The notes beneath the pieces are model-generated. The model was not told the origin of the DNA, ran no database searches, and worked only from the letters and a program-made list of their open reading frames with translations. From assembly GCF_013170805.1 (NCBI RefSeq), contig NZ_CP051293.1, positions 3,602,001 to 3,666,000 on the forward strand: DNA of 64,000 bases. Direction: 5' to 3'. Source of the stretch: Mesorhizobium sp. NZP2077 (GTDB lineage: Bacteria > Pseudomonadota > Alphaproteobacteria > Rhizobiales > Rhizobiaceae). Shown in pieces: positions 25,924-51,167 of this stretch. The position numbers were made by a program, and so were the translations under genes. How positions within the stretch are numbered: the stretch's first letter is position 1; the number at the start of each line of letters is the position of its first letter.

Positions 25924-26538
25924 ATGACCGACATCGACAATAAGGACGAAGAGCGCCATCGCGCCAAGATGGCCAAGCGCAAGGCGGTGCAGGACGCCGA
26001 GGTGGCGAGCAAGACGGTCGAGAAGGGTCTGCTCATCGTCAACACCGGCCCGGGCAAGGGCAAGACGACGGCCGCCTTCGGCCTGGCGCTGCGGATGCTC
26101 GGCTATGGCAAGCGCGTCGGTGTCGTCCAGTTCATCAAGGGCAAATGGCACACTGGCGAGAAGGATGCGTTTGCCGCCTTCGGTGATCGTGTCGTCTGGC
26201 ACGCGATGGGCGAGGGTTTTACCTGGGAGACACAGGATCTGAGGCGCGACATCGCCGCGGCGCAAGCTGCCTGGGCCAAGGCGCTGGAGTTGATCGCCGA
26301 TCCGTCGATCAGTCTTGTCGTGCTCGACGAGCTCAACATCGCGTTGCGCTACGATTATCTTGACCTCGAAGAAGTGGTCGCTGCGCTGAAAGCGCGGCGC
26401 GAAGGCCTGCATGTTGTCGTCACCGGCCGCAATGCCAAGCCGGCCCTGGTCGAGGCCGCGGATCTGGTCACCGAGATGGGCGTGACCAAACACCATTTTT
26501 CGGCAGGCGTGAAAGCACAGCAGGGGATCGAGTTCTAG
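25924..26538 (+). CDS. cobO: Corrinoid adenosyltransferase
   Basis: 204 residues, with P-loop NTGPGKGKTTAAFG (residues 40-53), the hallmark of the CobO/CobA type. It transfers the 5'-deoxyadenosyl group from ATP to cob(I)yrinic acid a,c-diamide or cobinamide. It begins two bases after cobU. Its TAG stop shares the CTAG palindrome at 26535-26538 with the stop of the convergent cobD gene. Confidence 0.95.
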   Translation: MTDIDNKDEERHRAKMAKRKAVQDAEVASKTVEKGLLIVNTGPGKGKTTAAFGLALRMLGYGKRVGVVQFIKGKWHTGEKDAFAAFGDRVVWHAMGEGFTWETQDLRRDIAAAQAAWAKALELIADPSISLVVLDELNIALRYDYLDLEEVVAALKARREGLHVVVTGRNAKPALVEAADLVTEMGVTKHHFSAGVKAQQGIEF

Positions 26539-27509
26539 AACACCAGAACCGCGATCACCGAAACAACAGCGAATAGCGCGATCAGCAGATAATCGGCGAC
26601 GCGGTAGAGTTTCAGCGCCCGCCTGATGTCGCCGCTGTCGACGTCGCGTCGGCCGCCTTCGCCCATGAAGACGTCGTCGACCACGATGCCGCCATAGCTG
26701 CGTGGCCCGGCGAGCGCCAGGCCAAGCGCGCCGGCCATGGCGGCTTCCGGCCAGCCGGCATTGGGTGAGCGGTGCTTTTTCGCGTCGCGCCACACCGCTT
26801 GCCGGGCGCTGCGGGGATCTGCATCCTTGACCAGAAAAGCCGCCAGCACGATCAGCAGCGCCGTCAGCCTCGACGCCGGCAGGTTGATCCAGTCGTCGAA
26901 GCGTGCGGCTGCCCAGCCGAAGGCTTCGTGACGCGGGGTACGGTGGCCGATCATCGAATCGGCGGTGTTGGCGGCCTTGTAGGCAGCGCCTCCGGCCAAT
27001 CCGCCGACGCCGGTCCAGAAGGCGGGGGCGACGATGCCGTCGGAAAAATTCTCGGCCAGGCTTTCGATCGCCGCGCGGCAGACGGCGGCGCGGTCGAGCG
27101 CTTCGGGATCGCGGCCGACGATTCGCGAGACGGCGACACGGCCCATGGCGAGGCCGCCCGAGTCCAGCGCGTCGGCAACGGCCTCGACATGGTCGTAGAG
27201 GCTCTTCTGCGACAGAAGCGATGTCCCCAGAAGGGCGGCGATGAATAGGCCGAACGGAACGAACCAAAGCAGGACAAGCTGCAAGCAAAGGCCGATCACC
27301 GCCGGCACGAGCACGATGATCAGCAGCGCCTGGACACCGCGTTGGTGACGCAGGGCGTCGGGATCAGTGGCGCGGTTGAGCCTGCGATCGAGAAAGGATA
27401 TCAGCCTGCCGAACCACGTCACCGGATGGCCGATGGCGCGGAACAGCCAGTCCGGGTAACCGAGGGCGAATTCGACGGCCAATGACAGGAAAGCGATCAG
27501 GACTGACAT
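26535..27509 (-). CDS. cobD: Adenosylcobinamide-phosphate synthase
   Basis: 324 residues from ATG 27509, giving the conserved start with GYPDWLFRAIGHPVTWFGRL. It is a polytopic CbiB/CobD protein that attaches aminopropanol (phosphate) to adenosylcobyric acid in the inner membrane. SLAENFSDGIVAPAFW and the GWPEAAMAGALG region are typical. It is transcribed against cobO and divergently from cobC, and its start codon overlaps the cobC start codon (CATG at 27507-27510). A longer 359-codon reading runs into cobC and is rejected. Confidence 0.93.
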   Translation of the reverse strand: MSVLIAFLSLAVEFALGYPDWLFRAIGHPVTWFGRLISFLDRRLNRATDPDALRHQRGVQALLIIVLVPAVIGLCLQLVLLWFVPFGLFIAALLGTSLLSQKSLYDHVEAVADALDSGGLAMGRVAVSRIVGRDPEALDRAAVCRAAIESLAENFSDGIVAPAFWTGVGGLAGGAAYKAANTADSMIGHRTPRHEAFGWAAARFDDWINLPASRLTALLIVLAAFLVKDADPRSARQAVWRDAKKHRSPNAGWPEAAMAGALGLALAGPRSYGGIVVDDVFMGEGGRRDVDSGDIRRALKLYRVADYLLIALFAVVSVIAVLVF

Positions 27510-28554
27510 GAAGCTTCTTGATGGAGCGGTGGACCATGGTGGAAGTCTTGGCCGGGCGAGGGTGCTTTTCCCCAACGCCGTGCTGCCTTTCGTCGACCTC
27601 TCGACTGGTATCAACCCGCACTCCTATCCGCTTTTCGACCTGCCCGCCACCTCGCTGTCGCGATTGCCGGAAGCCGGGCGCGGGCGCGAGCTGACCGAAA
27701 TCGCGGCAAGCACCTATGGCGCGCCGTCGCCAGCCAATGTCGTCGCGGCGCCCGGCACGCAGATCCTGCTGCCGCGCGTGGCCTCGCTGGTCAGGCCCGG
27801 CAAGGCATTGGTGCTGGGGCCGACCTATGCCGAACATGCCCGCGCAGCGGCGATTGCCGGGCATCAGGTGGGCGAAATCGGCGATTTTGCGGCGCTGGCA
27901 GGTGCCGACGTTGCTATCATCGTCAATCCGAACAATCCCGATGGCCGCGTCATCGAGCGCGACCGGCTGCTGGCGCTGGCCGCCGGGCTGCGCGCAAAAG
28001 GCGGGCTGCTGGTCATCGACGAGGCCTTCATGGATGTCGGCCCGCGCCAGCACAGCCTCGCCGGTGATGTCGACCAGGGCGGCATCGTCGTGCTGCGCTC
28101 GTTCGGCAAGTTCTTCGGCCTGGCCGGCCTGCGGCTTGGCTTCGCGCTGTCCGATGCCTCGACAGTCCAACAGCTGGAGACGCAACTCGGCCCATGGGCC
28201 GTCGCCGGTCCGGCGCTCGAGTATGGAATCCGCGCGCTTGCCGATATCGGCTGGCAGGACGCGATGCGGGCATCGCTTGCCGAGGCAGCCGCGCGGCTCG
28301 ACGAACTGTTCGCCCGTTTCGGCGTGTCCGTCGCGGGCGGCACCACATTGTTCCGTTATCTCAGCCTGCCGGATGCAGCCGGCCTGTTTTCGGCACTTGG
28401 CGAACGCGGCGCCCTGCTTCGGCATTTCTCCGACCGGCCGCATGTCCTGCGCGCCGGTCTGCCGGGGAGTCAGGAGGAATGGCAGCGGCTCGAATCCGCC
28501 CTTGCCGAATGGGCGGCGCGGCGCGAGGATCGATCAAAGGGTTCAAGAAAATGA
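27508..28554 (+). CDS. cobC: Threonine-phosphate decarboxylase
   Basis: 348 residues, class I/II PLP fold. NPNNPDGRV and the PLP-lysine motif SFGKFFGLAGLRLGF (Lys201) place it with CobC/CobD decarboxylases, which supply (R)-1-amino-2-propanol phosphate for the nucleotide loop. CAGGAC upstream is a plausible ribosome site. It is coupled to the following phosphatase-like gene by ATGA (28551-28554). Confidence 0.92.
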   Translation: MKLLDGAVDHGGSLGRARVLFPNAVLPFVDLSTGINPHSYPLFDLPATSLSRLPEAGRGRELTEIAASTYGAPSPANVVAAPGTQILLPRVASLVRPGKALVLGPTYAEHARAAAIAGHQVGEIGDFAALAGADVAIIVNPNNPDGRVIERDRLLALAAGLRAKGGLLVIDEAFMDVGPRQHSLAGDVDQGGIVVLRSFGKFFGLAGLRLGFALSDASTVQQLETQLGPWAVAGPALEYGIRALADIGWQDAMRASLAEAAARLDELFARFGVSVAGGTTLFRYLSLPDAAGLFSALGERGALLRHFSDRPHVLRAGLPGSQEEWQRLESALAEWAARREDRSKGSRK

Positions 28555-29060
28555 TCCATGTCTGCTCGCTGGCGAAGATCGAGGAAACGGTGGCAAGGAC
28601 GGGTGCCGACCGGGTGCTGTCGCTGCTCTCCGCCGGAACGGAGGTGGTTCGCCCGGCCTCGATTTCGAGGGAAAACCATTTGCATCTGGTCATGCACGAC
28701 ATCGCGGTGGCGCAGGACGGCATGACCATGCCGGGCGAGGAGCATGTCCGTAATCTGCTCGATTTCGCGCGCCGCTGGGATCGAGCAAAGCCGATGGTGG
28801 TGCATTGCTATGCCGGCATCAGCCGCTCGACCGCCTCGGCCTATATCATCGCCGCCGCACTCTCGCCAAAACGTGACGAGGCCGAACTGGCGCAGACATT
28901 GCGGGCGCTGTCGCCTTCGGCGACACCCAATCCGCGCCTGATCGCGGTGGCCGACGCTCTGCTTGAGCGCAATGGCCGCATGATCGAGGCGATTCAGTCG
29001 ATCGGGCGCGGTGCCGATGCATTCGAAGGCACTCCGTTCGCGCTGAGGATCGATAGTTAG
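28551..29060 (+). CDS. Protein tyrosine/dual-specificity phosphatase-like protein
   Basis: 169 residues from ATG 28551, overlapping the cobC stop. The signature HCYAGISRST (His85, Cys86, Arg92) is the HCx5R phosphatase loop, and Asp50 in VMHDIA is a candidate general acid. It is an intracellular enzyme without signal peptide. Coupling to cobC suggests a link to cobalamin synthesis, perhaps dephosphorylating a phosphorylated intermediate, although the family usually acts on proteins. Substrate unknown. Confidence 0.85.
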   Translation: MIHVCSLAKIEETVARTGADRVLSLLSAGTEVVRPASISRENHLHLVMHDIAVAQDGMTMPGEEHVRNLLDFARRWDRAKPMVVHCYAGISRSTASAYIIAAALSPKRDEAELAQTLRALSPSATPNPRLIAVADALLERNGRMIEAIQSIGRGADAFEGTPFALRIDS

Positions 29061-29064
29061 GCGG

Positions 29065-29868
29065 CTACTTCAGCCACTCGGCGAGCTTCGCCTTGCGCAC
29101 ATCCCTGAGCAGGCTGATGAAGCCGTCGGCTTGATGCTCTGCCGTCAGCCTACCTTTTTCCGCAGTCGCGATGCTGGCGTCGCCGACCACGCCGTTCGGG
29201 TTGAGATCGCTGGCGATCCAGGCGAAGGCGTGGGTGCCGGTGTGGCGCAGCAGCGCGAATTCCTTCTCGGCCTTGGCGACATTGGAAACGAAATTGTCGG
29301 CCTTGCCCATGTCAACCAGATCCGGGCGGAAATGCAGCATCAAGGACGTCTCGACATCGCCGCCATGGATGCCGTGACGGTCCTCGAGCTCGGTGTACAT
29401 GCCGGCCGGGCGGCCAAAGCGCTGCCAGCTGGTCTTTACCGCCAGCATCTTTTCGCGCACGCGCAATTCACGCGTGATGATGCCCATGATCTCTTCATTG
29501 CCGCCGTGCGAGTTGACGACGACGAGCTTGCGCACGCCGGCGTGCGCGATCGACAGGCCAAGCTCGGTCCAGGCGTCGACCAGCGTCGTTGCCGGCAAAG
29601 TGAGGGTGCCCGGCGCGTGCAGATGCTCGTTCGACTTGCCGACCGCCTGGACCGGCAGGATGCGAATGTCGAGATCGTCGGGCAGACGGGCGATCACGGT
29701 GTCGAGCATGCCGTTCATGATCGAGGTGTCGGTCGAGACCGGCAGATGTGGTCCGTGCTGCTCGATCGCCGCCACCGGCAGAACGGCGATCGTCGCCTCC
29801 GGATCGATCGAGGCATATTCGGTGGTCCGGTAGTCGCCCCACCAGGCGCGTCTTTTCGCTACGGTCAT
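29065..29868 (-). CDS. Creatininase-family amidohydrolase
   Basis: 267 residues. Metal-binding motifs EQHGPHLP (Glu36, His38), Asp47, and VVNSHGGNEE (His121) plus a downstream GGDVETS Glu are those of creatininase/MftE-type Mn/Zn amidohydrolases, which open small cyclic amides or act on formamides. It is followed upstream on the same strand by a RidA gene and lies divergent from an ABC/amidohydrolase operon, suggesting a shared nitrogen-compound pathway. True substrate not creatinine-proven. Confidence 0.88.
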   Translation of the reverse strand: MTVAKRRAWWGDYRTTEYASIDPEATIAVLPVAAIEQHGPHLPVSTDTSIMNGMLDTVIARLPDDLDIRILPVQAVGKSNEHLHAPGTLTLPATTLVDAWTELGLSIAHAGVRKLVVVNSHGGNEEIMGIITRELRVREKMLAVKTSWQRFGRPAGMYTELEDRHGIHGGDVETSLMLHFRPDLVDMGKADNFVSNVAKAEKEFALLRHTGTHAFAWIASDLNPNGVVGDASIATAEKGRLTAEHQADGFISLLRDVRKAKLAEWLK

Positions 29869-29923
29869 GTCATGCCTCTTGAATGGTTAGGGGAGACCTA
29901 GCGCGGCGCTGGCAGCCTGTCGA

Positions 29924-30307
29924 TCACCCGGCCGCGATGGCCTCGACCTCGACCTTGAATTCGGGTCGGGCAAAACCGCTGACGATCATCAGCGTCGAGG
30001 CCGGCGCCGGGCTCGAAAACAGCCGGTCGCGGACATCCATATAGGGGCGCAGATGCGCTCGGTCGGTGACATAGGCGTTGATGCGAACGACATCCCCGAG
30101 CCCCAGTCCCGCTTCTGCGAGGATCGCCTCGATGTTGCGGAAGCAGAGCTCGGCCTGCGCGCCGGCGTCCTCGGGAATCTGGTCGTCCGCCGTGATCGCC
30201 ACCTGGCCGGAGCACATCACCAGCCGCTTGCCCGGCGGCACCTCGACGCCGTGGCTGTAGCGGGCAAAAGGCGGCTTGATCGACTTCGGGGCGAGGAATC
30301 TGAACAT
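29924..30307 (-). CDS. RidA/YjgF-family enamine/imine deaminase
   Basis: 127 residues, normal for the family. VVRINAYVTD and the final EVEAIAAG block mark the RidA trimer interface and active site, although the catalytic Arg position should be checked. It hydrolyses reactive enamines or imines released by PLP or oxidase enzymes. In pyrimidine-type catabolism RidA-like proteins remove aminoacrylate; that is a plausible job here, next to creatininase-like and cytosine-deaminase-like genes. Confidence 0.87.
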   Translation of the reverse strand: MFRFLAPKSIKPPFARYSHGVEVPPGKRLVMCSGQVAITADDQIPEDAGAQAELCFRNIEAILAEAGLGLGDVVRINAYVTDRAHLRPYMDVRDRLFSSPAPASTLMIVSGFARPEFKVEVEAIAAG

Positions 30308-30495
30308 GGCAATCTCCTGGATATCGCCAGCCTAAGGCGGGATGCGTTACAGCTTCAAGATGGCGGTGCATGTTGCCCGTGCGATTGTGGACAGGCGTTC
30401 AAAAAATAGGCACGATGCCTCCGGTGCAGCACGACCTTTCCGGCTTTCGCAGATGGCTGTGGTGCAGGCGGGCGGGTCCCGGCGCGAGACGCCGG

Positions 30496-30511
30496 TGGCA
30501 TGTGTCTTGCT
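30496..30511 (+). promoter_or_regulatory. Sigma-54 (-24/-12) promoter
   Basis: TGGCATGTGTCTTGCT matches TGGCACG-N4-TTGCW with one deviation in the -24 block. Predicted transcription start is near 30522, about 50 bases before the ATG at 30573. Three GGTGCA motifs at 30365, 30423 and 30461 resemble NtrC half-sites, without full palindromes. Confidence 0.75.
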
Positions 30512-30572
30512 TCTTGAATCTTTGGTGTCGAGCCTGGCGCGTGGCGCCGGAGCAAACAGAGGGTGGTTGTCG

Positions 30573-31577
30573 ATGTACGCAAAACAGAAGATCTCGGTCG
30601 CGGTGGTGGCCTTGCTGGCAGCCAGCACGCTGGGTGCCGCGGCGAATGAAAAAGTCACCTTCGGCACCAACTGGTTGGCCGAGCCGGAACATGGCGGCTA
30701 CTACCAGGCCGTGGCGGACGGTACCTATGCCGCCTGCGGCCTCGACGTCACCATCATGCAGGGCGGCCCGCAGGTCAGCGGGCGGCCGATGCTTTTGGCC
30801 GGCAAGATCGACTTCTACATGGGCGGCAATCTGCTGTCGGCCTTCGATGCCGTCCAGCAAGGCATTCCGATGCGCGTGGTGGCCGCAGACTTCCAGAAGG
30901 ACCCGCAGGTCATCATGTCCCATCCCGGCGAAGGGCTGGACAAGTGGGAGGATCTCAAGAACGCCGACCAGTATATTCTGGGTGACGAAGGCGTGCAGAC
31001 ATTCTTCCAGTGGATGGTCACGGCGCTCGGCTTCGACGCCGCCAAGCGCGCGCCTTACACCTACAACACCGCTCCTTTCATCGCCAACAAGAAGTCGATC
31101 CAGCAGGGCTACGTCACCTCCGAGCCGTTCGCGGTCAAGAAGGAAGGCGGCTTCGTGCCGAACCAGTTCCTGCTCGCCGACTATGGCTGGGATACCTATT
31201 CGACAACGATCGAGGTGATGCAGGACACGATCGACAAGAAGCCGGAGGTCGTCCAGTGCTTCGTCGATGGCTCGGCCAAGGGCTGGTACAAATACCTCTA
31301 CGGCGACAACAAGGCCGCCAACGACATGATCAAGAAAGACAATCCTGACATGAGCGACGACCAGATCGCCTTCTCGATCGAGCAGATGAAGAAGTTCGGC
31401 CTTGCCGATTCCGGTGACACCGAGAAGCTCGGCATCGGCGCCATGACCGATGCGCGCATCAAGAGTTTCTACGACAAGATGGTCAAGGCCAAGGTCACAC
31501 CTGAAGGCATCGACATCACCAAGGGCTACACGTTGGCCTTCGTCAACAAGGGCGTCGGGCTCGACCTGAAGAAATAG
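30573..31577 (+). CDS. ABC transporter substrate-binding protein, NMT1/THI5-like
   Basis: 334 residues, signal peptide ending near ALLAASTLGAAA. The mature protein has the NMT1/THI5-like fold, with FGTNWLAEPEHGGYYQAVAD as opening, the family used for pyrimidine, hydroxymethylpyrimidine and related heterocycle uptake. A GAGGG ribosome site precedes ATG 30573. It is first in the operon with ATPase and permease, under a probable sigma-54 promoter. Ligand unknown. Confidence 0.9.
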   Translation: MYAKQKISVAVVALLAASTLGAAANEKVTFGTNWLAEPEHGGYYQAVADGTYAACGLDVTIMQGGPQVSGRPMLLAGKIDFYMGGNLLSAFDAVQQGIPMRVVAADFQKDPQVIMSHPGEGLDKWEDLKNADQYILGDEGVQTFFQWMVTALGFDAAKRAPYTYNTAPFIANKKSIQQGYVTSEPFAVKKEGGFVPNQFLLADYGWDTYSTTIEVMQDTIDKKPEVVQCFVDGSAKGWYKYLYGDNKAANDMIKKDNPDMSDDQIAFSIEQMKKFGLADSGDTEKLGIGAMTDARIKSFYDKMVKAKVTPEGIDITKGYTLAFVNKGVGLDLKK

Positions 31578-31589
31578 GCCAGCCTGGGC

Positions 31590-32414
31590 ATGATAGGGGA
31601 AAAGGTGGCGCGAGCGCCGGCATCGGACGTCGCTCCGACCTTGCTCGCGCTGCGCGGCGTCGGCAAGGTGTTTTCCAACGGCGTGACGGCGCTGAGTGAT
31701 GTCGACCTGACCATCCGGGAAGGCGATTTCCTCAGCCTGCTCGGGCCGTCCGGCTGCGGCAAGTCGACCGCACTGCGGCTGATCGCCGGCCTGTCGACGC
31801 CGACCTCCGGCGTGCTCGACTGGCGCGGCGGCGGTTCGCTCGACCGTGCCAATATCGGCTTCGTCTTCCAGGAGCCGACGCTGCTGCCCTGGGCCAGCGT
31901 CTTCGACAATGTCTGGCTGCCGCTCAGGCTGAAAGGCATTTCCCGCGCCAAGGCGGCGCCAGCGATCACGCAGATGCTGGCGCGGGTGCACCTGACCGGT
32001 TTCGAGGACGCCGTGCCGCGCGAACTGTCGGGTGGCATGAAGATGCGCGTGTCGATCGCGCGCGCCATGGTCACCAAGCCGCGCGTGCTGTTGATGGACG
32101 AGCCGTTCGCGGCACTGGACGAGATCACCCGCTTCAAGCTCAACAATGATCTGCTGGAGCTTTGGCAGGACGAGCGCTTCACCGTTGTCTTCGTCACCCA
32201 CAGCGTCTTTGAAAGCGTGTTCCTTTCCAACCGCGTCGTCGTCATGGCGGCGCGACCGGGCCGGGTCTTCGACGAACTCGCCATCGAGGCGTCCTATCCG
32301 CGCGATGAGGTGTTTCGCACCTCGCCGGACTATGCGGCCCTGTGCCGGCAGGCCTCGGACGTGTTGGTCACTGCCATCAATTCAACAGCAGGCGCGCATC
32401 ATGACGGCCATTGA
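31590..32414 (+). CDS. ABC transporter ATP-binding protein
   Basis: 274 residues. Walker A GPSGCGKST, signature LSGGM and Walker B LLMDEPFAALD are intact. SsuB/TauB-like family that pairs with NMT1-type binding proteins. It lies 12 bases after the binding-protein gene and overlaps the permease start by 14 bases. Energises import of a small organic solute. Confidence 0.93.
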   Translation: MIGEKVARAPASDVAPTLLALRGVGKVFSNGVTALSDVDLTIREGDFLSLLGPSGCGKSTALRLIAGLSTPTSGVLDWRGGGSLDRANIGFVFQEPTLLPWASVFDNVWLPLRLKGISRAKAAPAITQMLARVHLTGFEDAVPRELSGGMKMRVSIARAMVTKPRVLLMDEPFAALDEITRFKLNNDLLELWQDERFTVVFVTHSVFESVFLSNRVVVMAARPGRVFDELAIEASYPRDEVFRTSPDYAALCRQASDVLVTAINSTAGAHHDGH

Positions 32415-33252
32415 CGAGCAGGTGCTCCAACTCGATCCCGAGGAAGCGCGGCGCGTGCGCCAGGAACAGTTTGAACGGATCGGCCGCTGGGTTCTGCCGC
32501 TGGCGATCATGATCCTGGCGATCTGCCTGTGGGACCGCATCTGTGTCTGGAACGAGATCCCGCAATACATCCTGCCGCGCCCCGGCTTGGTGTTGCAGAC
32601 ACTCTTCAACGACGCCGGCCTGCTGTTCTCCTCGCTGCTGGTCACCTTGCGCATCACCTTCCTCAGCCTGGCTTTGGCTGTCATCGGCGGCGTCGGTCTG
32701 TCGGTGCTGTTCACGCAATCGAAATGGGTCGAGATGTCGTTCTTCCCGTTCGCCATCGTGCTGCAGGTGACGCCGATCGTGGCGATCTTTCCGCTGATCA
32801 ACATCTATGTGAACAACCAGACGACCAAGCTTCTGCTGTGCGCCTGGATCGTCGCCTTCTTTCCGATCCTGTCCAACACCACGCTTGGTCTCAACTCCGT
32901 CGACCGCAATCTGCGCGACCTGTTCAAGCTCAATGGCGCGACGCGCTGGCAGCAGCTGCGCTATCTCCGACTGCCGGCGGCGATGCCGTATTTCCTCGGC
33001 GGGTTGAAGATCGCCGGCGGCCTGTCGCTGATCGGCGCCGTCGTGGCGGAGTTCGTCGCCGGCACCACCGGCCAGTCGTCGGGGCTCGCCTCCCGCATCA
33101 TCGAGGCCGGCTATCGGCTCAACGCGCCAAGGCTGTTCGCGGCGCTGTTCCTGATCTCGCTGACCGGCATCCTGATCTTCCTCGTGCTGTCGCTGATCTC
33201 GCATCTCATTTTGCGGCGCTGGCACGAGAGCGCACTGAAGCAGGAGCGGTAG
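32401..33252 (+). CDS. ABC transporter permease
   Basis: 283 residues from ATG 32401, with a long N-terminal soluble lead (about 28 residues) then about six transmembrane helices. The EAA loop for ATPase docking is around residues 180-200 (DLFKLNGATRWQQL). BPD_transp_1-type permease of the SsuC family, forming the channel with the ATPase encoded upstream. Confidence 0.92.
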   Translation: MTAIDEQVLQLDPEEARRVRQEQFERIGRWVLPLAIMILAICLWDRICVWNEIPQYILPRPGLVLQTLFNDAGLLFSSLLVTLRITFLSLALAVIGGVGLSVLFTQSKWVEMSFFPFAIVLQVTPIVAIFPLINIYVNNQTTKLLLCAWIVAFFPILSNTTLGLNSVDRNLRDLFKLNGATRWQQLRYLRLPAAMPYFLGGLKIAGGLSLIGAVVAEFVAGTTGQSSGLASRIIEAGYRLNAPRLFAALFLISLTGILIFLVLSLISHLILRRWHESALKQER

Positions 33253-33256
33253 TGCC

Positions 33257-34558
33257 TTGATTCCAGACTCAGCTTCATACCGGCTCGCCAATGCCCGTCT
33301 TCACGCATCGCTGACGCCGGGGCTCGCTGCGGCCTATGACGGGGATGGCTTTGCGCTGCTCGACATCACTGTCGCAGATGGCAAGATCGCGGGCATTGCC
33401 GCACATGATCGGGCAGGGGCACCAGCCGATGCCATCGACCTTGCCGGCCGCATCGTTCTGCCCTGCTTCGTCGACTGCCACACCCATATCGACAAGGGTC
33501 ATATCTGGCCGCGAAAGCCCAATCCCGATGGCACCTTCATGGGTGCGCTCAATGCCGCGGGCGCCGATCGCGTCGCACGCTGGGGCGCCGAGGATCTTGC
33601 CAAGCGCATGGATTTTTCGCTGCGCTCGGCCTATGCGCATGGCACGAGGGCGCTGCGCACCCATCTCGACAGCGTCGCGCCGCAGGAGGAAATCTCCTGG
33701 CCGGTGTTCGAAACGATGCGCGAGACATGGCGCGGCCGCATCGAATTGCAGGGCGCCTGCCTGCTCGGCATCGAGGGCGTGCGCGACAAGAAATGGTTCG
33801 ACAGGCTGGCGAAACGGGTGGCTGCGGCCAAAGGTGTGCTCGGCGTCGTCACTTACATGGTGCCGGACCTGGAGGAGTTGCTTGACCATGTCTTCGCGCA
33901 GGCGATCAAACATGGGCTCGACCTCGATTTCCACGCCGACGAGACCGACGACGTCGCGGCGATCTCGTTGAAGAAGATCGCCGAGGCGGCACTCTGGAGC
34001 GGCTTCGAGGGCAATATCCTTGTCGGCCATTGCTGCTCGCTGGCGCGGCAGCCCGATCTCGAGGTGCTGGACACGCTGGACAAGGTGGCGAAAGCCGGGC
34101 TGGCGGTGGTGTCACTGCCGATGTGCAATCTCTATCTGCAGGATCGCCGCTCCGATCAGACCACGCCGCGCTGGCGTGGCGTGACGCTGCTGCACGAGAT
34201 GAAGGCGAGGGGCATTCCGGTGGCGGTTGCTTCCGACAACACGCGCGATCCTTTCTACGCCTATGGCGACCTCGACATGCTGGAGGTCTACCGCATGGCG
34301 ACGCGCATCCTGCATTTCGACCATCCGGTCGCCGACTGGCCGCAAGCGGTGACCGCGACCCCGGCCAAGGTGATGCGGGTCGACGGTTTCGGCACTCTTG
34401 CCGCAGGCGGCGATGCCGATTTCATCCTATTCAAAGGTCGAAGCTGGACCGAATTGCTGTCGCGGCCCGAATCGGATCGCATCGTCGTGCGCGCCGGGCG
34501 CGCGATCGACCGGCAATTGCCCGACTATGCCGAACTCGACGAACTGATGGTGGAATGA
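33257..34558 (+). CDS. Cytosine deaminase-like amidohydrolase
   Basis: 433 residues from a TTG start at 33257. HTHID (His75, His77) is the N-terminal metal site, then DFHADETDD, GHCCSL and ASDNTRDPFYAYGDLDML in the order seen in CodA-type deaminases and in creatinine deaminases. It removes ammonia from cytosine or related ring compounds. Four bases after the permease, so probably acts on the imported compound. Substrate could be cytosine, isocytosine, creatinine or an unknown heterocycle. Confidence 0.85.
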   Translation: MIPDSASYRLANARLHASLTPGLAAAYDGDGFALLDITVADGKIAGIAAHDRAGAPADAIDLAGRIVLPCFVDCHTHIDKGHIWPRKPNPDGTFMGALNAAGADRVARWGAEDLAKRMDFSLRSAYAHGTRALRTHLDSVAPQEEISWPVFETMRETWRGRIELQGACLLGIEGVRDKKWFDRLAKRVAAAKGVLGVVTYMVPDLEELLDHVFAQAIKHGLDLDFHADETDDVAAISLKKIAEAALWSGFEGNILVGHCCSLARQPDLEVLDTLDKVAKAGLAVVSLPMCNLYLQDRRSDQTTPRWRGVTLLHEMKARGIPVAVASDNTRDPFYAYGDLDMLEVYRMATRILHFDHPVADWPQAVTATPAKVMRVDGFGTLAAGGDADFILFKGRSWTELLSRPESDRIVVRAGRAIDRQLPDYAELDELMVE

Positions 34559-35955
34559 TGGACGTTTCGGCGCTCAAACGCGATCTCGACGGGCTGAAAT
34601 TCGACGACAATCCGGCCATCGTCCAACAGAAGAGCCGTGACTTCTACTGGTACAGCCCTGTGCTGAAACAGCAGCTCGACCATGTCACCGGCGACCTGAT
34701 CGTGACGCCGAAGACCGAGGCCGAACTGATCCGCGTGCTCGCCGCTTGCCATCGGCATGGCGTGCCGGTGACGCCGCGTGGCAGCGGCACGGGCAATTAC
34801 GGCCAGGCGATGCCGCTTTCGGGCGGCGTGGTGCTCAATCTGGCCGAGATGAACGAGATCAAATCGATCGCGCCGGGGCGCGTGGTGACCGGGCCGGGCG
34901 CGGTGCTGGCCGATATCGACAAGGCAACACGCGCGCATTCCGGCCAGGAACTGCGCATGTCGCCATCGACCTATAACACGGCCTCGATCGGCGGCTTTGT
35001 CGCTGGCGGTTCCGGTGGTGTCGGCTCGATCCGCTGGGGTGGCTTGCGCGATCTCGGCAATGTCATCCGGCTGCGGACGGTGACGATGGAGGCCGAGCCG
35101 CGCGTCATGGATCTCACTGGCGAGGATGTGCTGAAAGTCATGCACGCCTATGGCACCAACGGCATCATCACCGAGGTCGAGATGCCGCTGACCGCCAGCT
35201 ATGACTGGATCGACGTCATTGTCGGCTTCGACGATTTCATGGACGCGGCCGGATTCGGCAACGATCTCGCGGTCCAGGACGGCATACTGGCGAAGCTAAT
35301 CACGCCGATCGCGGCACCTATCCCTTACGACTATTTCAAACGGCACCAGCGTTTCTTCCGGCGCGAGCAGAGCGTTGTCGTCTGCATGATCGCGCCGCAC
35401 GCGATGGATGCGTTTGTCGCCTTTGCGGCGCGTGGCAAGGGCGAGATCGTGTTCCGCGCCGACCGCGAGGCCGATCTCAAGGGGCTGCCGCCGGCCTATG
35501 AGCTAACGTGGAACCATACGACGCTGCGCGCCATCAGGGTCGATCCCTCGATCACCTATCTGCAGGCACGCTATCCGTCGCCGGATCATCTCGCCCACGT
35601 CAAGGCAATGGTCGATCGCTTCGGCGACGAGGTGCCGGCGCATCTCGAATTCATCCGCTTCGACGGCGCGATCGGCGTCGCGGGGTTGCCGCTCGTGCGC
35701 TTCACCACGGCCGAACGACTGGACGAGATCATCCGTATCCACGAGGACAATGGCTGCTGGATCTTCAATCCGCACCGCTACACGCTGGAGGAAGGCGGTA
35801 TGAAGCAGACCGACGAGGTGCAGCTTGCCTTCAAGCGCGAGACCGATCCGCAAGGGCTCCTCAACCCCGGCAAGATGATCGCCTGGGAGAACCCGGACTA
35901 TGATTACCGCTCGGGCAAGTCGTTCCTGTTCAAGGGGCTACAGAGGGTTGGATGA
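34555..35955 (+). CDS. FAD-binding oxidase/dehydrogenase (PCMH type)
   Basis: 466 residues from ATG 34555 (or 34558), overlapping the previous stop. The FAD-binding PCMH domain shows TPRGSGTGNYGQAMPLSGGV and SIGGFVAGGSGGVGSIRWGG; the C-terminal part ends RETDPQGLLNPGKMIAWE, like glycolate/lactate oxidase (GlcD) relatives. It should oxidise a hydroxyacid or ring compound in the cytoplasm. In the same operon as an amidohydrolase and two flavoproteins, so it likely oxidises a deaminated intermediate. Confidence 0.85.
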   Translation: MMDVSALKRDLDGLKFDDNPAIVQQKSRDFYWYSPVLKQQLDHVTGDLIVTPKTEAELIRVLAACHRHGVPVTPRGSGTGNYGQAMPLSGGVVLNLAEMNEIKSIAPGRVVTGPGAVLADIDKATRAHSGQELRMSPSTYNTASIGGFVAGGSGGVGSIRWGGLRDLGNVIRLRTVTMEAEPRVMDLTGEDVLKVMHAYGTNGIITEVEMPLTASYDWIDVIVGFDDFMDAAGFGNDLAVQDGILAKLITPIAAPIPYDYFKRHQRFFRREQSVVVCMIAPHAMDAFVAFAARGKGEIVFRADREADLKGLPPAYELTWNHTTLRAIRVDPSITYLQARYPSPDHLAHVKAMVDRFGDEVPAHLEFIRFDGAIGVAGLPLVRFTTAERLDEIIRIHEDNGCWIFNPHRYTLEEGGMKQTDEVQLAFKRETDPQGLLNPGKMIAWENPDYDYRSGKSFLFKGLQRVG

Positions 35956-36536
35956 TGAACATCCTCGCCCTCTACGCGCATCCGGTCGAGAGCAGCTTCA
36001 ATGCCGGCCTGCACCGGTTGATCGTCGAGCGGCTGACGGCGGCGGGGCATACGGTCGATGACTGCGATCTCTACGCCGAGGATTTCGACCCCAGGCTGAC
36101 GCGCCAGGAGAGGCTGGACTATCACAATCCGCGCGGCTCCGCGGACCCCGCGGCGCCGTATGTCGAGCGCCTGTTGCGGGCCGATGCGCTGGTGCTTTCC
36201 TATCCGGTCTGGAACTATGGCTTTCCGGCGATCCTGAAAGGCTTTTTCGACCGTGTCTTCCTGCCCGGCGTGTCGTTCAAGCTCGTCGACGGCAAGGTGC
36301 AGCCGTCGCTGCACAACATCCGCAAAGTCGCGGCGGTCACCACCTATGGCGGCAGCCGGTTTCGCGCCATTGTGATGGGTGATCCGCCGCGCAAGCTGAT
36401 CAAGCGCATGCTGCGCGCCACGGTAAAGCCGGGCGCGCCGGTGACTTACCTCGCACACTACGCGATGAACCTGTCGACCGACGACACACGGAAGGCCTTC
36501 ATGACGAAGGTTGCTGCGAGCATGGATGCGTTCTGA
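35952..36536 (+). CDS. NAD(P)H-dependent oxidoreductase, flavodoxin-like fold (first paralogue)
   Basis: 194 residues. The flavodoxin-like start MNILALYAHPVESSFNAGLH and YPVWNYGFPAILKGFFDRVF match the NQO1/MdaB/KefF group, which bind FMN or FAD and reduce quinones. Coupled to the FAD-oxidase gene by ATGATG overlap. Together with the next paralogue it could re-oxidise or reduce a redox product of the pathway. Confidence 0.87.
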   Translation: MMNILALYAHPVESSFNAGLHRLIVERLTAAGHTVDDCDLYAEDFDPRLTRQERLDYHNPRGSADPAAPYVERLLRADALVLSYPVWNYGFPAILKGFFDRVFLPGVSFKLVDGKVQPSLHNIRKVAAVTTYGGSRFRAIVMGDPPRKLIKRMLRATVKPGAPVTYLAHYAMNLSTDDTRKAFMTKVAASMDAF

Positions 36537-37123
36537 TGCGGGTCCTAGTGGTCTATTGCCATCCGGTGCCGGAAAGTTTTTGTGCAAGCATTCGCGACAC
36601 CGCCGTCGATGCGCTGAAGGCAAGGGGCTGGGAGGTGCGGCTGCTCGACCTCTATGCCGAGAAATTCGACCCGGTGATGGGTTGTGAGGAGCGGCGCAGC
36701 TACAATAACCAGGCGCCGCAGGATCCGGCGCTGAAGCCGCATTTCGAACTGCTCGCCTGGGCCGAGGCGATCCTGTTCGTCTACCCGACCTGGTGGTACG
36801 GGCTGCCGGCGATGCTGAAGGGCTGGCTCGACCGCGTATGGGCGACCGACGTTGCCTTCAAGCTACCGGCGGGCAAGGGACGGATCAAATCGCTGATGAC
36901 GCATGTGACCAAGGTCGGCGTCATCACCACCTGCGGTGCACCGACCTGGTGGAGCGTCGTCGTCGGCCAGCCCGGGCGCAAGACATTGCTGCGCGGCATG
37001 CGTGCGCTGTGCGCGACAAGGTGCAAGACGTTCTTCCTGGCGCATTATCTGATGGATGCCTCGACGCCAAAGACGAGGGCGGCGTTTCTGGCGAAGGTGA
37101 GGGCGAAGCTGGAGCGGTTTTAG
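36536..37123 (+). CDS. NAD(P)H-dependent oxidoreductase, flavodoxin-like fold (second paralogue)
   Basis: 195 residues, same domain order as its upstream neighbour: MRVLVVYCHPVPESFCASIR and YPTWWYGLPAMLKGWLDRVW. It begins in a one-base overlap with the first paralogue, so the pair probably arose by tandem duplication and then diverged. Both lack membrane segments. They may form a heterodimer. Last gene of the operon, followed by a hairpin. Confidence 0.87.
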   Translation: MRVLVVYCHPVPESFCASIRDTAVDALKARGWEVRLLDLYAEKFDPVMGCEERRSYNNQAPQDPALKPHFELLAWAEAILFVYPTWWYGLPAMLKGWLDRVWATDVAFKLPAGKGRIKSLMTHVTKVGVITTCGAPTWWSVVVGQPGRKTLLRGMRALCATRCKTFFLAHYLMDASTPKTRAAFLAKVRAKLERF

Positions 37124-37135
37124 GGAATTAGCGTC

Positions 37136-37159
37136 CTTCTCCCCGCAAACGGGGCGAAG
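37136..37159. terminator. Possible bidirectional terminator between convergent operons
   Basis: CTTCTCCCCG (37136-37145) can pair with CGGGGCGAAG (37150-37159) around CAAA, with one bulge, between the ends of two convergent genes. No long T-run. Confidence 0.4.
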
Positions 37160-37169
37160 AAAGACCGCG

Positions 37170-39620
37170 CTACATCTTCACCCGCTCCGCCTTCGGATCA
37201 TACATCGGCTTCAGCGACGCCTCCGCCGCGAAACGCTCGCCGGCGATCTCGATCTCGTAGGACGACGCCAGCACATCAGCCTCACTCTCGCCCTGGCACG
37301 GCACATAGCCCAGCCCGATGGCGCCGCCGAGATGGTGGCCGTAATTGCCCGAGGTGATCGGGCCGACGATCTTGCCATCGCGCAGGATCGCTTCATTGTG
37401 AAAGAGCAGGGGCTGTGGGTCTTTCAGGCGGAACTGCACCAGGCGTCGGTTCAATCCGGCTTCCTTCTTCTTCAGCACGGCATCGCGGCCGATGAACTCG
37501 CCCTTGGCCGTCTTCACCGCGAAGCCGAGGCCAGCTTCCAACACGTTGTCCTCGTCGGTGATGTCGTGGCCAAAATGGCGAAAGGCCTTTTCGATGCGGC
37601 AGGAATCCAGCGTATGCAGGCCGCAGAGTTTCAGGCCGACATCGGCGCCGGCCTCGTCGATCGCCTCGAAGACATGGGCTGCCTGGTCGGTCGAGACATA
37701 GAGTTCCCAGCCGAGTTCGCCGACATAGGTGACGCGGTGGGCGCGGGCGAGGCCCATGCCGATCTCGATCTCCTGGAACGTGCCGAACGGGTTGTTGTTG
37801 TTGGAGAAATCATTGGGGCTGACCTTCTGGATCAGTTTTCGCGCGTCAGGGCCCATCAGGCAAAGCACGCTTTCGGCCGCTGTCACATCGGTGATGACGA
37901 CGAATTCCTCGCCCACATGCCGGCGCAGGCAGGCGAGGTCACGCTGCAGTGTAGCACCCGGCACGACGAGGAAGTACGCCGTATCCGACAGCCGCGAGAC
38001 GGTAAGATCGCTTTCGATGCCGCCGCGCTGGTTGAGCATCTGCGTGTAGACGATCTTGCCTGGCGCCACGTCCATGTCGTTGGCACACAGTTTTTGCAGG
38101 AAGGCACAGGCGTCGCGGCCCTCGACGCGGATCTTGCCGAACGAGGTCATGTCGAACAGGCCGACCTTGTTGCGGACCGCCAAATGTTCTTCGCGCTGGT
38201 TGTCGAACCAGTTCTGCCGCTTCCAGGAGTAGCGGTATTCGCGCTCCTGGCCTTCGCGGGCGAACCAGTTGGCGCGCTCCCAGCCGGCGACCTCGCCGAA
38301 CACCGCGCCGCGCGCCTTCAGGTGCTCATGCAGGGGCGAACGCCTGACATTTCTCGACGTCGCCATCTGGCGATAGGGGAAATGGTCGGCATAAAGCAGG
38401 CCGAGCGTTTCGGAGACGCGCTCCTTGAGATAGCGGCGGTTCTTCTGGAACGGCTGGGCGCGGCGGATGTCGACTTCCCAGAGATCGAAGGGCGCTTCGC
38501 CGTCGTTGATCCACTGCGCCAGCGCCATGCCGGCGCCGCCGGAGGAGACGATGCCGATCGAATTGTAGCCGGTCGCCATCCAGTAGCCGGAGAGCTCCGG
38601 TGCCTCGCCGAGATAGTAGCGGTCGTCGGGGGTAAAACTTTCAGGACCGTTGAAGAAGGTGTGGATGCCGGCGGTGGCCAGCATCGGCATGCGGTTGACG
38701 CCCATTTCGAGGATCGGTTCGAAATGGTCCATGTCCTCGGGCAACTGGTCGAAGCAGAAATCCTCGCGGATGCCATCCATGCCCCAGGGCTTGGCAACCG
38801 GTTCGAAGGCGCCCAGCATCATCTTGCCGGCATCTTCCTTGTAGTAGGCGCACTCGTCCGGCACGCGCAGCACCGGCAGGCGGGAAAGGCCGGGGATCGG
38901 CTCGGTGACGAGATAGAAATGCTCGCAGGCGTGAAGCGGGATGGTGACGCCGTTCTGGGCGCCCAGTTCGCGCGCCCACATGCCGGCGCAATTGACGATG
39001 ATGTCGGCCTCGATGGTGCCTTGATCCTCGCCCTGTGCCCAGGACACGCCGATGACGCGGCCTGCCTTGGTGTGAACCTTGGTCACCTTCACATTCTCGA
39101 CGATGGTGGCGCCGCGCTGGCGCGCACCCTTGGCCAGCGCCATGGCGATGTTGGCCGGATCGCACTGGCCGTCGAGCGGCAGGTGCACGGCGCCGACGAC
39201 GTCGGATACATTGAGATGCGGGTACATCTGCTTGACTTCGCTCGGTGAAATCTCGCGCACGTCGACATCGAAGGCGCGGGCCAGCGACGCCTGCCGGTAG
39301 ATTTCGTGCTTGCGCTCCTCGGTCAGCGCGACGGTGATCGAGCCGACCTGGCGCATGCCGGTGCCGACTTCGGTCTCGGCTTCCAGCTTGACGTAGAGGT
39401 CGGCCGAATATTTCGCCAGCCGCGTCATGTTCTGCGAGCCGCGCAACTGGCCGATCAGGCCGGCGGCATGCCATGTCGTGCCCGAGGTCAGCTGCTTGCG
39501 TTCGAGCAGCACGATGTCGGTCCAGCCAAGCTTGGCCAGATGATAGGCGACCGAACAGCCGGAAACGCCGCCGCCGATGATGACGGCCCGGGCCTTGGTG
39601 GGGATGGTCTTGGTGGTCAT
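37170..39620 (-). CDS. Dimethylglycine/sarcosine dehydrogenase-like protein with GcvT domain
   Basis: 816 residues. FAD domain VIIGGGVSGCSVAYHLAKLG (residues 13-32), a TTWHAAG site with His51 at the covalent-FAD position of dimethylglycine dehydrogenases, then a FAO_M-like middle and a C-terminal GcvT folate-binding region (about residues 400-816). The reaction would remove a methyl group from an N-methyl amino acid and pass it to tetrahydrofolate. Last gene of the operon; its start overlaps the end of the aminotransferase gene by four bases. Substrate could be dimethylglycine, sarcosine or a related amine. Confidence 0.87.
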   Translation of the reverse strand: MTTKTIPTKARAVIIGGGVSGCSVAYHLAKLGWTDIVLLERKQLTSGTTWHAAGLIGQLRGSQNMTRLAKYSADLYVKLEAETEVGTGMRQVGSITVALTEERKHEIYRQASLARAFDVDVREISPSEVKQMYPHLNVSDVVGAVHLPLDGQCDPANIAMALAKGARQRGATIVENVKVTKVHTKAGRVIGVSWAQGEDQGTIEADIIVNCAGMWARELGAQNGVTIPLHACEHFYLVTEPIPGLSRLPVLRVPDECAYYKEDAGKMMLGAFEPVAKPWGMDGIREDFCFDQLPEDMDHFEPILEMGVNRMPMLATAGIHTFFNGPESFTPDDRYYLGEAPELSGYWMATGYNSIGIVSSGGAGMALAQWINDGEAPFDLWEVDIRRAQPFQKNRRYLKERVSETLGLLYADHFPYRQMATSRNVRRSPLHEHLKARGAVFGEVAGWERANWFAREGQEREYRYSWKRQNWFDNQREEHLAVRNKVGLFDMTSFGKIRVEGRDACAFLQKLCANDMDVAPGKIVYTQMLNQRGGIESDLTVSRLSDTAYFLVVPGATLQRDLACLRRHVGEEFVVITDVTAAESVLCLMGPDARKLIQKVSPNDFSNNNNPFGTFQEIEIGMGLARAHRVTYVGELGWELYVSTDQAAHVFEAIDEAGADVGLKLCGLHTLDSCRIEKAFRHFGHDITDEDNVLEAGLGFAVKTAKGEFIGRDAVLKKKEAGLNRRLVQFRLKDPQPLLFHNEAILRDGKIVGPITSGNYGHHLGGAIGLGYVPCQGESEADVLASSYEIEIAGERFAAEASLKPMYDPKAERVKM

Positions 39621-40798
39621 GCGGCCTCACGACGGTAGCTGGAAGCAAAACGGCGCAGCCGAAGTGCTGCTTCTTGGAGAATGGGCTCCGGCTGGCAGAG
39701 GCTGATGCGTATGTGGCCGGCGGCGGCTTCGCCGAAGCTGGAGCCCGGCATCACACCGACATTCTCCTTGTCGAGGAAGGCGAAGGCGAATTTCTCGTCG
39801 TCGCGTTCGACCGCAGATATGTCGAGCATGACATACATGCCGCCTTCGGAGCCGCGCACGGCGACGTCGTTCATGCCGCGCACGGCGTCGAGGAAGACGG
39901 TGCGGCGCGCCGCGTAGCGCTCGGCGATATCCTTCACGCCGTAATGATTCTCCAGCGCCTCGGCGCAGGCGACCGAGATGAAGGCCGGCAGGCCATAGGT
40001 CGTCACCAGGTTGAGGTTGATGAGCAGCGTGATCATTGCTTCAGGCCCGGTCAGCCAGCCCATGCGCCAGCCGGTCATGCCATGGCTCTTGGACATGGAA
40101 TTGATGACAAGCGTGCGCTCGGCCATGCCGGGCAGCGAGCGTGGCGAGACGTGCTCGCCGCCGCCCAGCGTCCAGTAGACCTCGTCCGACAGCAGCCAGA
40201 GGTCGTGCTCGCGGCAGATTTCGGCCAGCTGTTCCAGCCGCTCGCGCGAATAGACCGCACCGGTCGGGTTGTTCGGTGTGTTGATCAGGATGGCGCGCGT
40301 GTTGGGCTTGAGCGCAGCGCGGATCATGTCGGCATGCGGCTGGAAACCATCCTCTGCCGGCGTCTCGACCACGGTGAAACTGGCACCGGCGGCGCTGAAC
40401 GTGTTGGGGTAGGTGGCGTAATAGGGGGCAACGACGATGGCGTGGTCGCCCTGGTCGAGCACGGCCTGCACGGCCGCGTAAAGGGCGGCCTGGCCGCCCG
40501 GCGTGGCGATGACCTGATCCGGCGTCGTTTCGACGCCGGTGCAGGCGCTCGAGGCTGCCGCCATTGCCTGGCGCAGGCGCGGCAGGCCCGGCAGCGGCGT
40601 ATAGTGGTGATTGCTGCCGCGAACCGCGGCCACGCAGGCCTCGATTGTTTGCGAAGGCGTGTCGAAATCATGGTCGCCGACCGACAGCATGATGATGTCC
40701 TCGCCGGCCGCCTTGCGGGTCCAGGCGGCCGAGTGGACTTCCCAGCCATCCTTGCCTGACGGGACAATGCCGGAAATGCGCGATGATGGTCTAGGCAT
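39617..40798 (-). CDS. Class I PLP aminotransferase
   Basis: 393 residues from ATG 40798. TPNNPTGAVYSRERLEQLAE and SMSKSHGMTGWRMGW (with the PLP-lysine) place it with aspartate aminotransferase-like enzymes. It overlaps both neighbours slightly: 8 bases with the upstream homocysteine methyltransferase gene, 4 with the dehydrogenase gene. The linkage suggests it trans- or de-aminates an intermediate of the N-methyl compound pathway, but the amino donor is unknown. Confidence 0.88.
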   Translation of the reverse strand: MPRPSSRISGIVPSGKDGWEVHSAAWTRKAAGEDIIMLSVGDHDFDTPSQTIEACVAAVRGSNHHYTPLPGLPRLRQAMAAASSACTGVETTPDQVIATPGGQAALYAAVQAVLDQGDHAIVVAPYYATYPNTFSAAGASFTVVETPAEDGFQPHADMIRAALKPNTRAILINTPNNPTGAVYSRERLEQLAEICREHDLWLLSDEVYWTLGGGEHVSPRSLPGMAERTLVINSMSKSHGMTGWRMGWLTGPEAMITLLINLNLVTTYGLPAFISVACAEALENHYGVKDIAERYAARRTVFLDAVRGMNDVAVRGSEGGMYVMLDISAVERDDEKFAFAFLDKENVGVMPGSSFGEAAAGHIRISLCQPEPILQEAALRLRRFASSYRREAA

Positions 40799-41696
40799 GT
40801 ATATCTCCCGAAATCTCATAGCCGGCCAGTTCGAGCCGGTCGCGCAGCGCGGCAATATGCGGCGGTCCGACTTCGCAGCAGCCGCCGACGATGTCGGCAC
40901 CTGCCTCCACCCAGCCGATCGCCTGCTCGGCATAGGCGTCCGGGCCGAGGTCGTGACGGGCGTGCAGCACATCGACGGTACCGCCGTGCTTGAGCGCCTC
41001 CGTGGAGGTGAAGCCATTGGCATAGGCGCCGACCGGGCCGCCGAGATCGATCAGTTCAGGCAAGGCGGCGGCGATTGCTTCCGGCCGGCAGCAGTTGAGC
41101 AGCCGCGCCGCTATCGGCAGGCCATCAAGCGCTCTGGCCGCGGCGGCTATTGTTTCACCGCTGCGCAGCCGCGGCGTGCCGTGATCGGCCAACGTCCACG
41201 ATACCCAGACCGGTTTGCCGCTTTCCGATGCCGCTGTGACGGCCGCCCGCGCCTCATCGGCCGAGGCCATGGTCTCACACAGGAAGAGATCGACGCCATT
41301 CGCCTGCTCGGCAACGATGCGGCGGTAGATGTCGAGCGTCTCCTGGTAAGAGATGGTCAGCGCCGGTGCGTAGCTGCCGAAAAGCGGTGACAGGCAGCCG
41401 GCGATCGCTGCATCGCCGGCCTCGTTGCGAGCCTGCCTGGCCAGTTCGATGCCGCGCTTCTGCAGTGGCTTGAATAGCTCCTCGGCGCCCTCGCGCGCCA
41501 GGCGTTCGGGTGTCGCCGAATAGGTGTTGATGGTGATGACACGGGCGCCGGCGCGGATGAATTCGGCATGCAGATCGCGTACCAGATCGGGTTCATCGAT
41601 CAGCACCCTGGCCGACCACAAGGGCGTCGGCTCGGATTTGCTGCGCCGGACCAGTTCCTGACCCATGCCACCGTCGGTGAGGATGACTTTCTTCAT
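40791..41696 (-). CDS. Homocysteine S-methyltransferase family protein
   Basis: 301 residues from ATG 41696. The N-terminal LTDGGMGQELVRRS and the Cys-rich zinc sites NCCRPE and GGCCEVGP match the Zn-dependent homocysteine/betaine methyltransferase fold. It could use a betaine or S-methylmethionine-like donor to methylate homocysteine. Between two dehydrogenase-like genes, it would provide a first demethylation step and couple it to methionine. Donor is inferred. Confidence 0.88.
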   Translation of the reverse strand: MKKVILTDGGMGQELVRRSKSEPTPLWSARVLIDEPDLVRDLHAEFIRAGARVITINTYSATPERLAREGAEELFKPLQKRGIELARQARNEAGDAAIAGCLSPLFGSYAPALTISYQETLDIYRRIVAEQANGVDLFLCETMASADEARAAVTAASESGKPVWVSWTLADHGTPRLRSGETIAAAARALDGLPIAARLLNCCRPEAIAAALPELIDLGGPVGAYANGFTSTEALKHGGTVDVLHARHDLGPDAYAEQAIGWVEAGADIVGGCCEVGPPHIAALRDRLELAGYEISGDIHA

Positions 41697-44146: not shown

Positions 44147-44168
44147 GTTTCTTCTCCCGAATCTTAAT

Positions 44169-44756: not shown

Positions 44757-44766
44757 AACGCGCTCT

Positions 44767-44834
44767 TCATGAAAATTTCAATCCGATTTTCATGAGAAAT
44801 CAAGCTCATGAAAAAATCAAGCGGATTTTCACCG
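44767..44834. promoter_or_regulatory. Two tandem 29-bp operator-like repeats
   Basis: TCATGAAAAT (44767-44776) and ATTTTCATGA (44786-44795) are perfect inverted halves around 9 bases. A second copy, TCATGAAAAA (44806-44815) with ATTTTCACCG (44825-44834), has the same 29-base layout, starting 39 bases later. They sit between the divergent XRE-cupin and nitroreductase genes. Confidence 0.75.
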
Positions 44835-44936
44835 ATGCTCAAGATTTGCTTGCAGGATTTTGACGGTTCATGCAATGGCTCCGCCGCGAGCGGCGAGTGG
44901 GGACGTCCGGTCGACAAAAAGGCTAAGGGACGGCCC

Positions 44937-51158: not shown

Positions 51159-51167
51159 AGGATGTTC

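Follow-up and report, generated by a model that had tools for sequence, protein, structure and literature searches.

Nine genes at positions 29065–37123 of a 64,000-nucleotide stretch of the Mesorhizobium sp. NZP2077 genome (contig NZ_CP051293.1, 3,602,001–3,666,000; hereafter the window) quite probably make up a pterin or folate catabolism operon of Mesorhizobium, as judged by comparison with related genes and genomes. The source genome is 7.69 Mb in size and its nearest named relatives in our scan are Mesorhizobium. All nine reading frames are open, and profile searches matched the families that an initial annotation had assigned to them. The seven genes of the + strand are packed in the order binding protein, ATPase, permease, deaminase, flavin adenine dinucleotide (FAD) enzyme and two flavodoxin-fold reductases; since they overlap by 1–14 bases or leave gaps of 4–12 bases, we read them as one operon. 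Genes for a RidA-type and a creatininase-family protein on the – strand diverge from this run. In the remaining 54 kb of the window no homolog of any of the nine genes was found at E ≤ 1e-6.

The FAD enzyme and the deaminase

Two of the steps that the operon would encode, deamination and flavin-dependent oxidation, have known relatives. The FAD-binding flavin oxygenase at 34555–35955 (+; PF01565; fold of vanillyl-alcohol oxidase and p-cresol methylhydroxylase, VAO/PCMH) is, by its sequence, an ortholog of the protein of PDB entries 6V42 and 6V43, the former entitled 'Crystal structure of the flavin oxygenase with cofactor bound involved in folate catabolism'. It matches 6v42_A (identical in sequence to 6v43) over the full length with 759 bits and 68.8% identity at equal length, the next PDB sequence reaching 53 bits. 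6V42 keeps 169 of the 171 columns that are invariant across 14 orthologs. In a tree of 51 rows it groups with four Mesorhizobium-type orthologs (support 96 in the Shimodaira–Hasegawa-like approximate likelihood ratio test, SH-aLRT) and the paralogs of <52% identity lie on one side of a branch (SH-aLRT 99); the tree was a quick one, with this type of support only and long-branch warnings among the paralogs. The source organism of 6V42/6V43 lies outside the examined loci, whose closest protein is 76% identical to 6V42. The NPHRYTLEEGG stretch is present in all 14 orthologs, without EHG there (one row has EHG elsewhere). The structural model of the window enzyme is of middling confidence (predicted local distance difference test, pLDDT, 68.3), and therefore it is the sequence match and not the fold that carries this assignment.

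The FAD gene has a mosaic appearance. When window positions 35000–36000 were compared with L059, L060, L064 and L071, L072, L074, L078, L081, the two 500-base bins from 35000 shared 87–89% DNA identity with loci of M. tianshanense type and 75–78% with those of M. kowhaii/ciceri type; in neighbouring bins of the operon the relation is mostly reversed (84–95% to M. kowhaii/ciceri-type, 80–89% to M. tianshanense-type loci), as if the FAD gene of NZP2077 had been replaced by recombination. FAD paralogs (40–49%) also occur in NMT1-transporter/creatininase clusters of their own (L181, L182, L184, L172, L174, L175, L178), some of which have no recognised deaminase; L181 and L182 hold two FAD paralogs each. 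These clusters suggest that the module is one of a larger family acting on related ring compounds. Two genomes of the same genus (G248:C22 and G265:C13) contain, besides an ortholog, a distant paralog of the FAD enzyme (38%), which in G248 (L180) stands next to a creatininase-family gene (35%).

The amidohydrolase at 33257–34558 (+; Amidohydro_3) carries the database name cytosine deaminase, as do other Mesorhizobium proteins, and is related to a protein that bears the name pterin deaminase. We used the deaminase of a Variovorax-like locus, L173, as a protein query; the named organisms among the 120 matches listed were Variovorax, with two exceptions, a Verminephrobacter and an unplaced proteobacterium. 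Among these proteins P0147 is 85% identical to the L173 deaminase and has the UniRef name 'Pterin deaminase'. In a single comparison the window deaminase is 38% identical to P0147 over 395 columns (234 bits), and it is the only close relative of P0147 in its genome, the next of three matches standing at 27%. A deaminase from a Rhizobium rhizogenes cluster is likewise the best match to P0147 in its genome (35–36%, next 29%), the coordinates of the match and of the cluster gene agreeing. In a study of Variovorax deaminases, these proteins are given as 36.0 and 37.0% identical to the folate-deaminating Arad3529 (PMC9513972). The R. rhizogenes percentages agree with that level. The Arad3529 strain, A. 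radiobacter K84, presumably belongs with R. rhizogenes.

The amidohydrolase positions with catalytic roles, HxH, H, H, E and D, are kept in the window protein, in the Variovorax proteins and in the other aligned rows, a likeness to the pterin deaminase type of EC 3.5.4.11 (with Arad3529 and the PDA of Variovorax sp. F1). The window protein differs from these in its 433 residues, against about 400, and in a longer C-terminal tail. The published forward primer for the Variovorax deaminase encodes MKLEAVR (PMC9513972). We picked 18 of 240 listed proteins for carrying KLEAVR close to the N-terminus or for ending in QENIA, and all 18 start as this primer encodes, with MKLEAVR or MKLEALR (two with a few residues before). 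A degenerate pattern modelled on the published Variovorax primer matched in none of 200 genomes of the family to which L173 belongs. Taken by sequence, the Mesorhizobium proteins named cytosine deaminase would be better called pterin deaminase candidates.

L173 resembles the window module in more than the deaminase. Profile searches of eight of its stretches, together with the protein comparisons, place a substrate-binding protein (55%), a permease, an ATPase, an FAD enzyme (42%), a creatininase-family protein (45%) and a flavodoxin (47%) within about 9 kb, along with a ferredoxin-NAD-flavin reductase. Endoribonuclease genes are reported downstream of Variovorax deaminase genes (PMC9513972), and the gene after the L173 deaminase is of the RidA family (PF01042). 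A RidA-family gene thus lies near the deaminase in both the Mesorhizobium module and L173.

Co-conservation and the accessory genes

The nine-gene set is one module, co-conserved beyond chance in Mesorhizobium, in other Hyphomicrobiales and, within the same class, in six genomes from a different family, and the co-occurrence in genome neighbourhoods expected by the initial annotation is thereby borne out. With the FAD enzyme we retrieved 80 named loci (coverage at least 60%), the best 80 of at least 584 matches, in which close kin weigh heavily. The FAD enzyme, deaminase and permease genes are present in 80/80, the binding-protein and ATPase genes in 79/80, creatininase in 76, the flv1-labelled reductase in 74, RidA in 73 and the flv2-labelled one in 35. 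A wider scan found the FAD enzyme at E ≤ 1e-100 in 106 of 297 genomes of the order and, for the phylum, at E ≤ 1e-80 in 32 of 398. The order scan returned 29 loci outside the window, of which we used 20; a further 40 were chosen by hand from the other 76 genomes. All five core genes, a flavodoxin of either kind and RidA are found in every one of the 20, and creatininase in 14. Among the 40 more distant loci the core five are complete in 28, with any flavodoxin in 37, the deaminase in 35, the binding protein and RidA in 30 each, the permease in 29 and creatininase in 25; the ATPase count of 35 includes some unrelated ABC (ATP-binding cassette) ATPases, and at least three of the loci are cut by contig ends. 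In the other family of the class, where we examined six of the seven genomes with an ortholog of at least 54%, the core, a flavodoxin and RidA are present in 6/6 and creatininase in 5/6, once at 25% identity at the locus edge. It should be noted that the named and other locus sets overlap (e.g. L039/L069, L041/L078, L044/L083, L048/L091, L054/L118) and that the counts are not independent.

Transport would be the task of an NMT1/ThiY-type periplasmic binding protein (30573–31577, +; PF09084; start taken as ATG 30573), an ABC transporter ATPase (31590–32414, +; PF00005, 112.5 bits) and a permease (32401–33252, +; PF00528, 82.3 bits). A fold search with the binding protein gave thiamin and aminopyrimidine binders as the nearest; ThiY/Thi5/NMT1 proteins have the fold in common with it at 16–18% identity. 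Its ligand is probably a pteridine and not a thiamin precursor. The two flavodoxin-fold NAD(P)H:quinone/flavin reductase-like proteins (35952–36536, +; PF02525, 106.8 bits, and 36536–37123, +; PF02525, 122.7 bits) are paralogs with 41% identity to each other, and the PDB sequence nearest to the second is 3lcm, an NADPH quinone oxidoreductase.

The creatininase-family amidohydrolase (29065–29868, –; PF02633, 228 bits), a proposed ring or amide hydrolase, shares its Pfam family with creatininase and MftE but falls below all four curated subfamily cut-offs listed, those of creatininase (TIGR04448, 83.7 bits, cut-off 235), MftE (TIGR03964, 114.7 bits, cut-off 172), ArfB and IolN. It keeps EQHG...D and NxH, and has HGG aligned to the HYE of creatininase. 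By these cut-offs and residues we rejected the creatinine and mycofactocin pathways. The RidA-type protein (29924–30307, –; PF01042, 83.7 bits), a proposed enamine/imine hydrolase, scores 27.3 bits with the model of RutC, the RidA-type protein of the Rut pyrimidine pathway, far below the cut-off of 169.1. On this ground, with RutC and neither RutA nor RutB searched for, the Rut pathway was rejected as well, and the earlier statement that the set matches neither creatinine breakdown nor Rut holds. A likeness to Rut presumably remains in the logic of flavin oxidation combined with a RidA-type protein and a hydrolase.

The RidA and binding-protein genes are separated by 265 bases (30308–30572), presumably the promoter region. 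No sigma-70-like promoter was found in 28900–37400, where 8 terminator-like sites stand against 5.7 ± 2.7 in shuffles, and the sole RNA family match in 28500–37500 was below threshold (17.5 bits, gathering score 40) and to an unrelated internal ribosome entry site family. We recognised no LysR- or MarR-type regulator adjoining the operon in the window. When recurrent neighbours were sought by clustering open reading frames of 30 loci (some genomes entering twice, many antisense clusters ignored, four proteins profile-searched), the clusters with L095:4751-5776 and L048:7286-7837, present in 11 and 10 of the 30, matched LysR-type and MarR-type regulators, by one profile search each. Many relatives have a second amidohydrolase near RidA (L048:14961-16304, L050, L053–L057 and 14 of the 40 wider loci), which the window is without. 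With 646 bits the L048 copy exceeds the cut-off of 532 set for NF006055, the 8-oxoguanine deaminase family, and it is related to PDB 2paj, which we take to be an isoxanthopterin deaminase.

Upstream, positions 25924–28554 of the window hold genes for a CobO-type adenosyltransferase and CobD/CbiB (cobalamin-type genes) and a class I/II aminotransferase. The open reading frame at 28194–29060 (+), convergent with the creatininase gene, shows by eye in its C-terminal part HCYAGISRS, which we take for a tyrosine/dual-specificity phosphatase-like motif. On the other side of the operon, 37170–52499 contains two dimethylglycine-dehydrogenase-like FAD/GcvT genes and genes for sarcosine oxidase alpha, delta and beta-like DAO domain proteins, presumably enzymes of folate-dependent demethylation. 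The tie between these demethylation-type neighbours and the pterin module may be chance. As parts of the module the dimethylglycine-dehydrogenase-like and aminotransferase genes were rejected, each being matched in only 27 of the 80 named loci; the former matches all lie within L059–L092 (Mesorhizobium and near records), and the aminotransferase has further weak matches (31–35%) in L119 and L125.

Alternative explanations

The same genes could serve free pterins or lumazines, or some other compound of pteridine or purine-like type (biopterin, products of molybdopterin breakdown, 8-oxo-purines), with folate as a side substrate. We regard this as a serious possibility, though well short of an even chance. 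The Arad3529 deaminase is said, in the abstract of a 2013 JACS (Journal of the American Chemical Society) paper, to favour small pterins over folate, and at 14 of the 40 wider loci a homolog of the 8-oxoguanine-deaminase-family protein is present in addition; the FAD-enzyme ortholog, however, was deposited as a folate catabolism enzyme. Cytosine or pyrimidine salvage, in which the amidohydrolase would indeed deaminate cytosine and pyrimidines would be processed by the other genes, is very improbable despite the protein's high score with the NF005759 equivalog of that name (654.3 bits, cut-off 403) and the repetition of the name in databases. Solved cytosine deaminases are distant from it (93 bits) and P0147 is closer, the RidA protein is far from RutC, and in one low-identity HMMER alignment the FPQEG loop of solved cytosine deaminase reads LGIEG in the window protein. 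The Gln of this loop, which we take to bind the pyrimidine in the E. coli enzyme, is thus replaced by Ile, and this speaks against a known cytosine pathway as the sole role of the genes, the outcome by which the initial annotation would have been undone. It is scarcely credible that the FAD enzyme is a 2-hydroxyacid dehydrogenase of glycolate/D-lactate type in an operon dealing with an acid by-product: it scores 88.5 bits with the GlcD model (cut-off 567.9), 6V42 is a far closer match, and HxGDGNxH, presumably typical of hydroxyacid dehydrogenases, occurs in none of the 14 orthologs, as read without alignment to a hydroxyacid dehydrogenase.

Creatininase and RidA might be chance neighbours, leaving the transporter, deaminase, FAD enzyme and reductases as the pathway. 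Four loci (L206, L207, L220, L221) indeed keep only flavodoxin, FAD enzyme and deaminase, L213 keeps the FAD enzyme and a flavodoxin, and gene order is shuffled among lineages, the place and strand of RidA and creatininase varying. Still, both genes remain near despite moving, with RidA in 73 and creatininase in 76 of the 80 named loci within the fetched stretches of ≤10 kb, which favours a functional tie. Creatininase accompanies the FAD gene even in L215, L217 and L219, which lack the deaminase and are reduced to these two genes and some ABC parts, and it is present at 12 of the 14 paralog loci. RidA and creatininase both recur at L173. We therefore consider chance association unlikely.

Several points weigh against assigning the module to pterin and folate catabolism. 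The evidence for the window proteins is comparative throughout. The folate role of 6V42 rests on the title of the deposit, and no paper naming 6V42 or 6V43 was found in the searched literature (most subscription journals lie outside this search). P0147 is the sole protein with a pterin-deaminase name visible among the 120 listed, the others being called amidohydrolase, cytosine deaminase or nothing; none of the 18 picked proteins ends as the reverse primer reads, and the Variovorax sp. F1 enzyme was not found among them. Arad3529 is equated with the cluster gene of R. rhizogenes by the agreement of percentages. The L173 FAD enzyme lies outside the 6V42 clade, and this locus therefore matches ours by families and not by strict orthology throughout. 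Fold similarity of the binding protein at 18% identity does not fix its ligand. Finally, of the 40 wider loci five have no deaminase (L195, which is cut by a contig end, L213, L215, L217 and L219), 15 miss creatininase and 10 miss RidA.

A possible pathway and its significance

Under the pterin/folate reading, the ABC transporter with its ThiY-like binding protein would import pterin or folate, and the amidohydrolase would strip the 2-amino group from the pterin ring, converting pterin to lumazine or folate to deaminofolate with release of ammonia. The FAD flavin oxygenase would next oxidise the deaminated compound, with reduced flavin or electrons supplied by the flavodoxin-fold NAD(P)H reductases encoded alongside. 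As the site of oxidation, cleavage of the C9–N10 bridge seems slightly likelier than ring oxygenation; cytokinin oxidase, by analogy, cleaves at its secondary amine. RidA could then hydrolyse the resulting imine or enamine, and the creatininase-family enzyme could open a cyclic amide or ureide or cleave an amide. We infer the transported substrate, the order of steps and what the reductases, RidA and creatininase do. The broad outline of the initial annotation stands, one co-conserved module by which a cyclic nitrogen compound is taken up, deaminated at the ring and oxidised; the ring opening and imine clean-up that it also suggested are putative roles of the creatininase-like protein and RidA.

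In its fullest form the proposal would make the nine genes a complete dedicated folate/pterin pathway down to the opened ring. A pteridine-specific importer, a pterin deaminase and a VAO-fold oxygenase supplied by flavodoxin-type reductases would be joined by RidA, acting in the pathway itself, and by a hydrolase from a new subfamily of creatininases that opens the lumazine ring or cleaves an amide. We hold this tentatively, at slightly less than an even chance.

The word 'undescribed', which the initial annotation used of the module, proved too strong. The deaminase type and the oxygenase are already known kinds, the FAD enzyme being orthologous to a flavin oxygenase deposited under folate catabolism and the deaminase kin of a named pterin deaminase, and the 2013 abstract on Arad3529 reportedly proposed a route of pterin degradation that had not been described. 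In the literature delimited above, covered in part through the 20 best of 414 and of 737 matches, no paper dealing with the complete set of genes was found. Bacterial breakdown of folate and pterins is little charted: a 2014 abstract calls its genes and steps not well understood (PMC5082436), and the fate of deaminopteroate is left open in a later study (PMC9513972).

In this module two enzymes of known type stand together with a transporter and with reductase, RidA and creatininase-family proteins. It also casts doubt on the wide use of the database label 'cytosine deaminase' for Mesorhizobium proteins. It offers nine concrete genes in culturable soil bacteria with which such a pathway can be tested. 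If the proposal is true, it would be a general route by which soil alphaproteobacteria, and Variovorax via a related module, use vitamin B9 as a nitrogen source.

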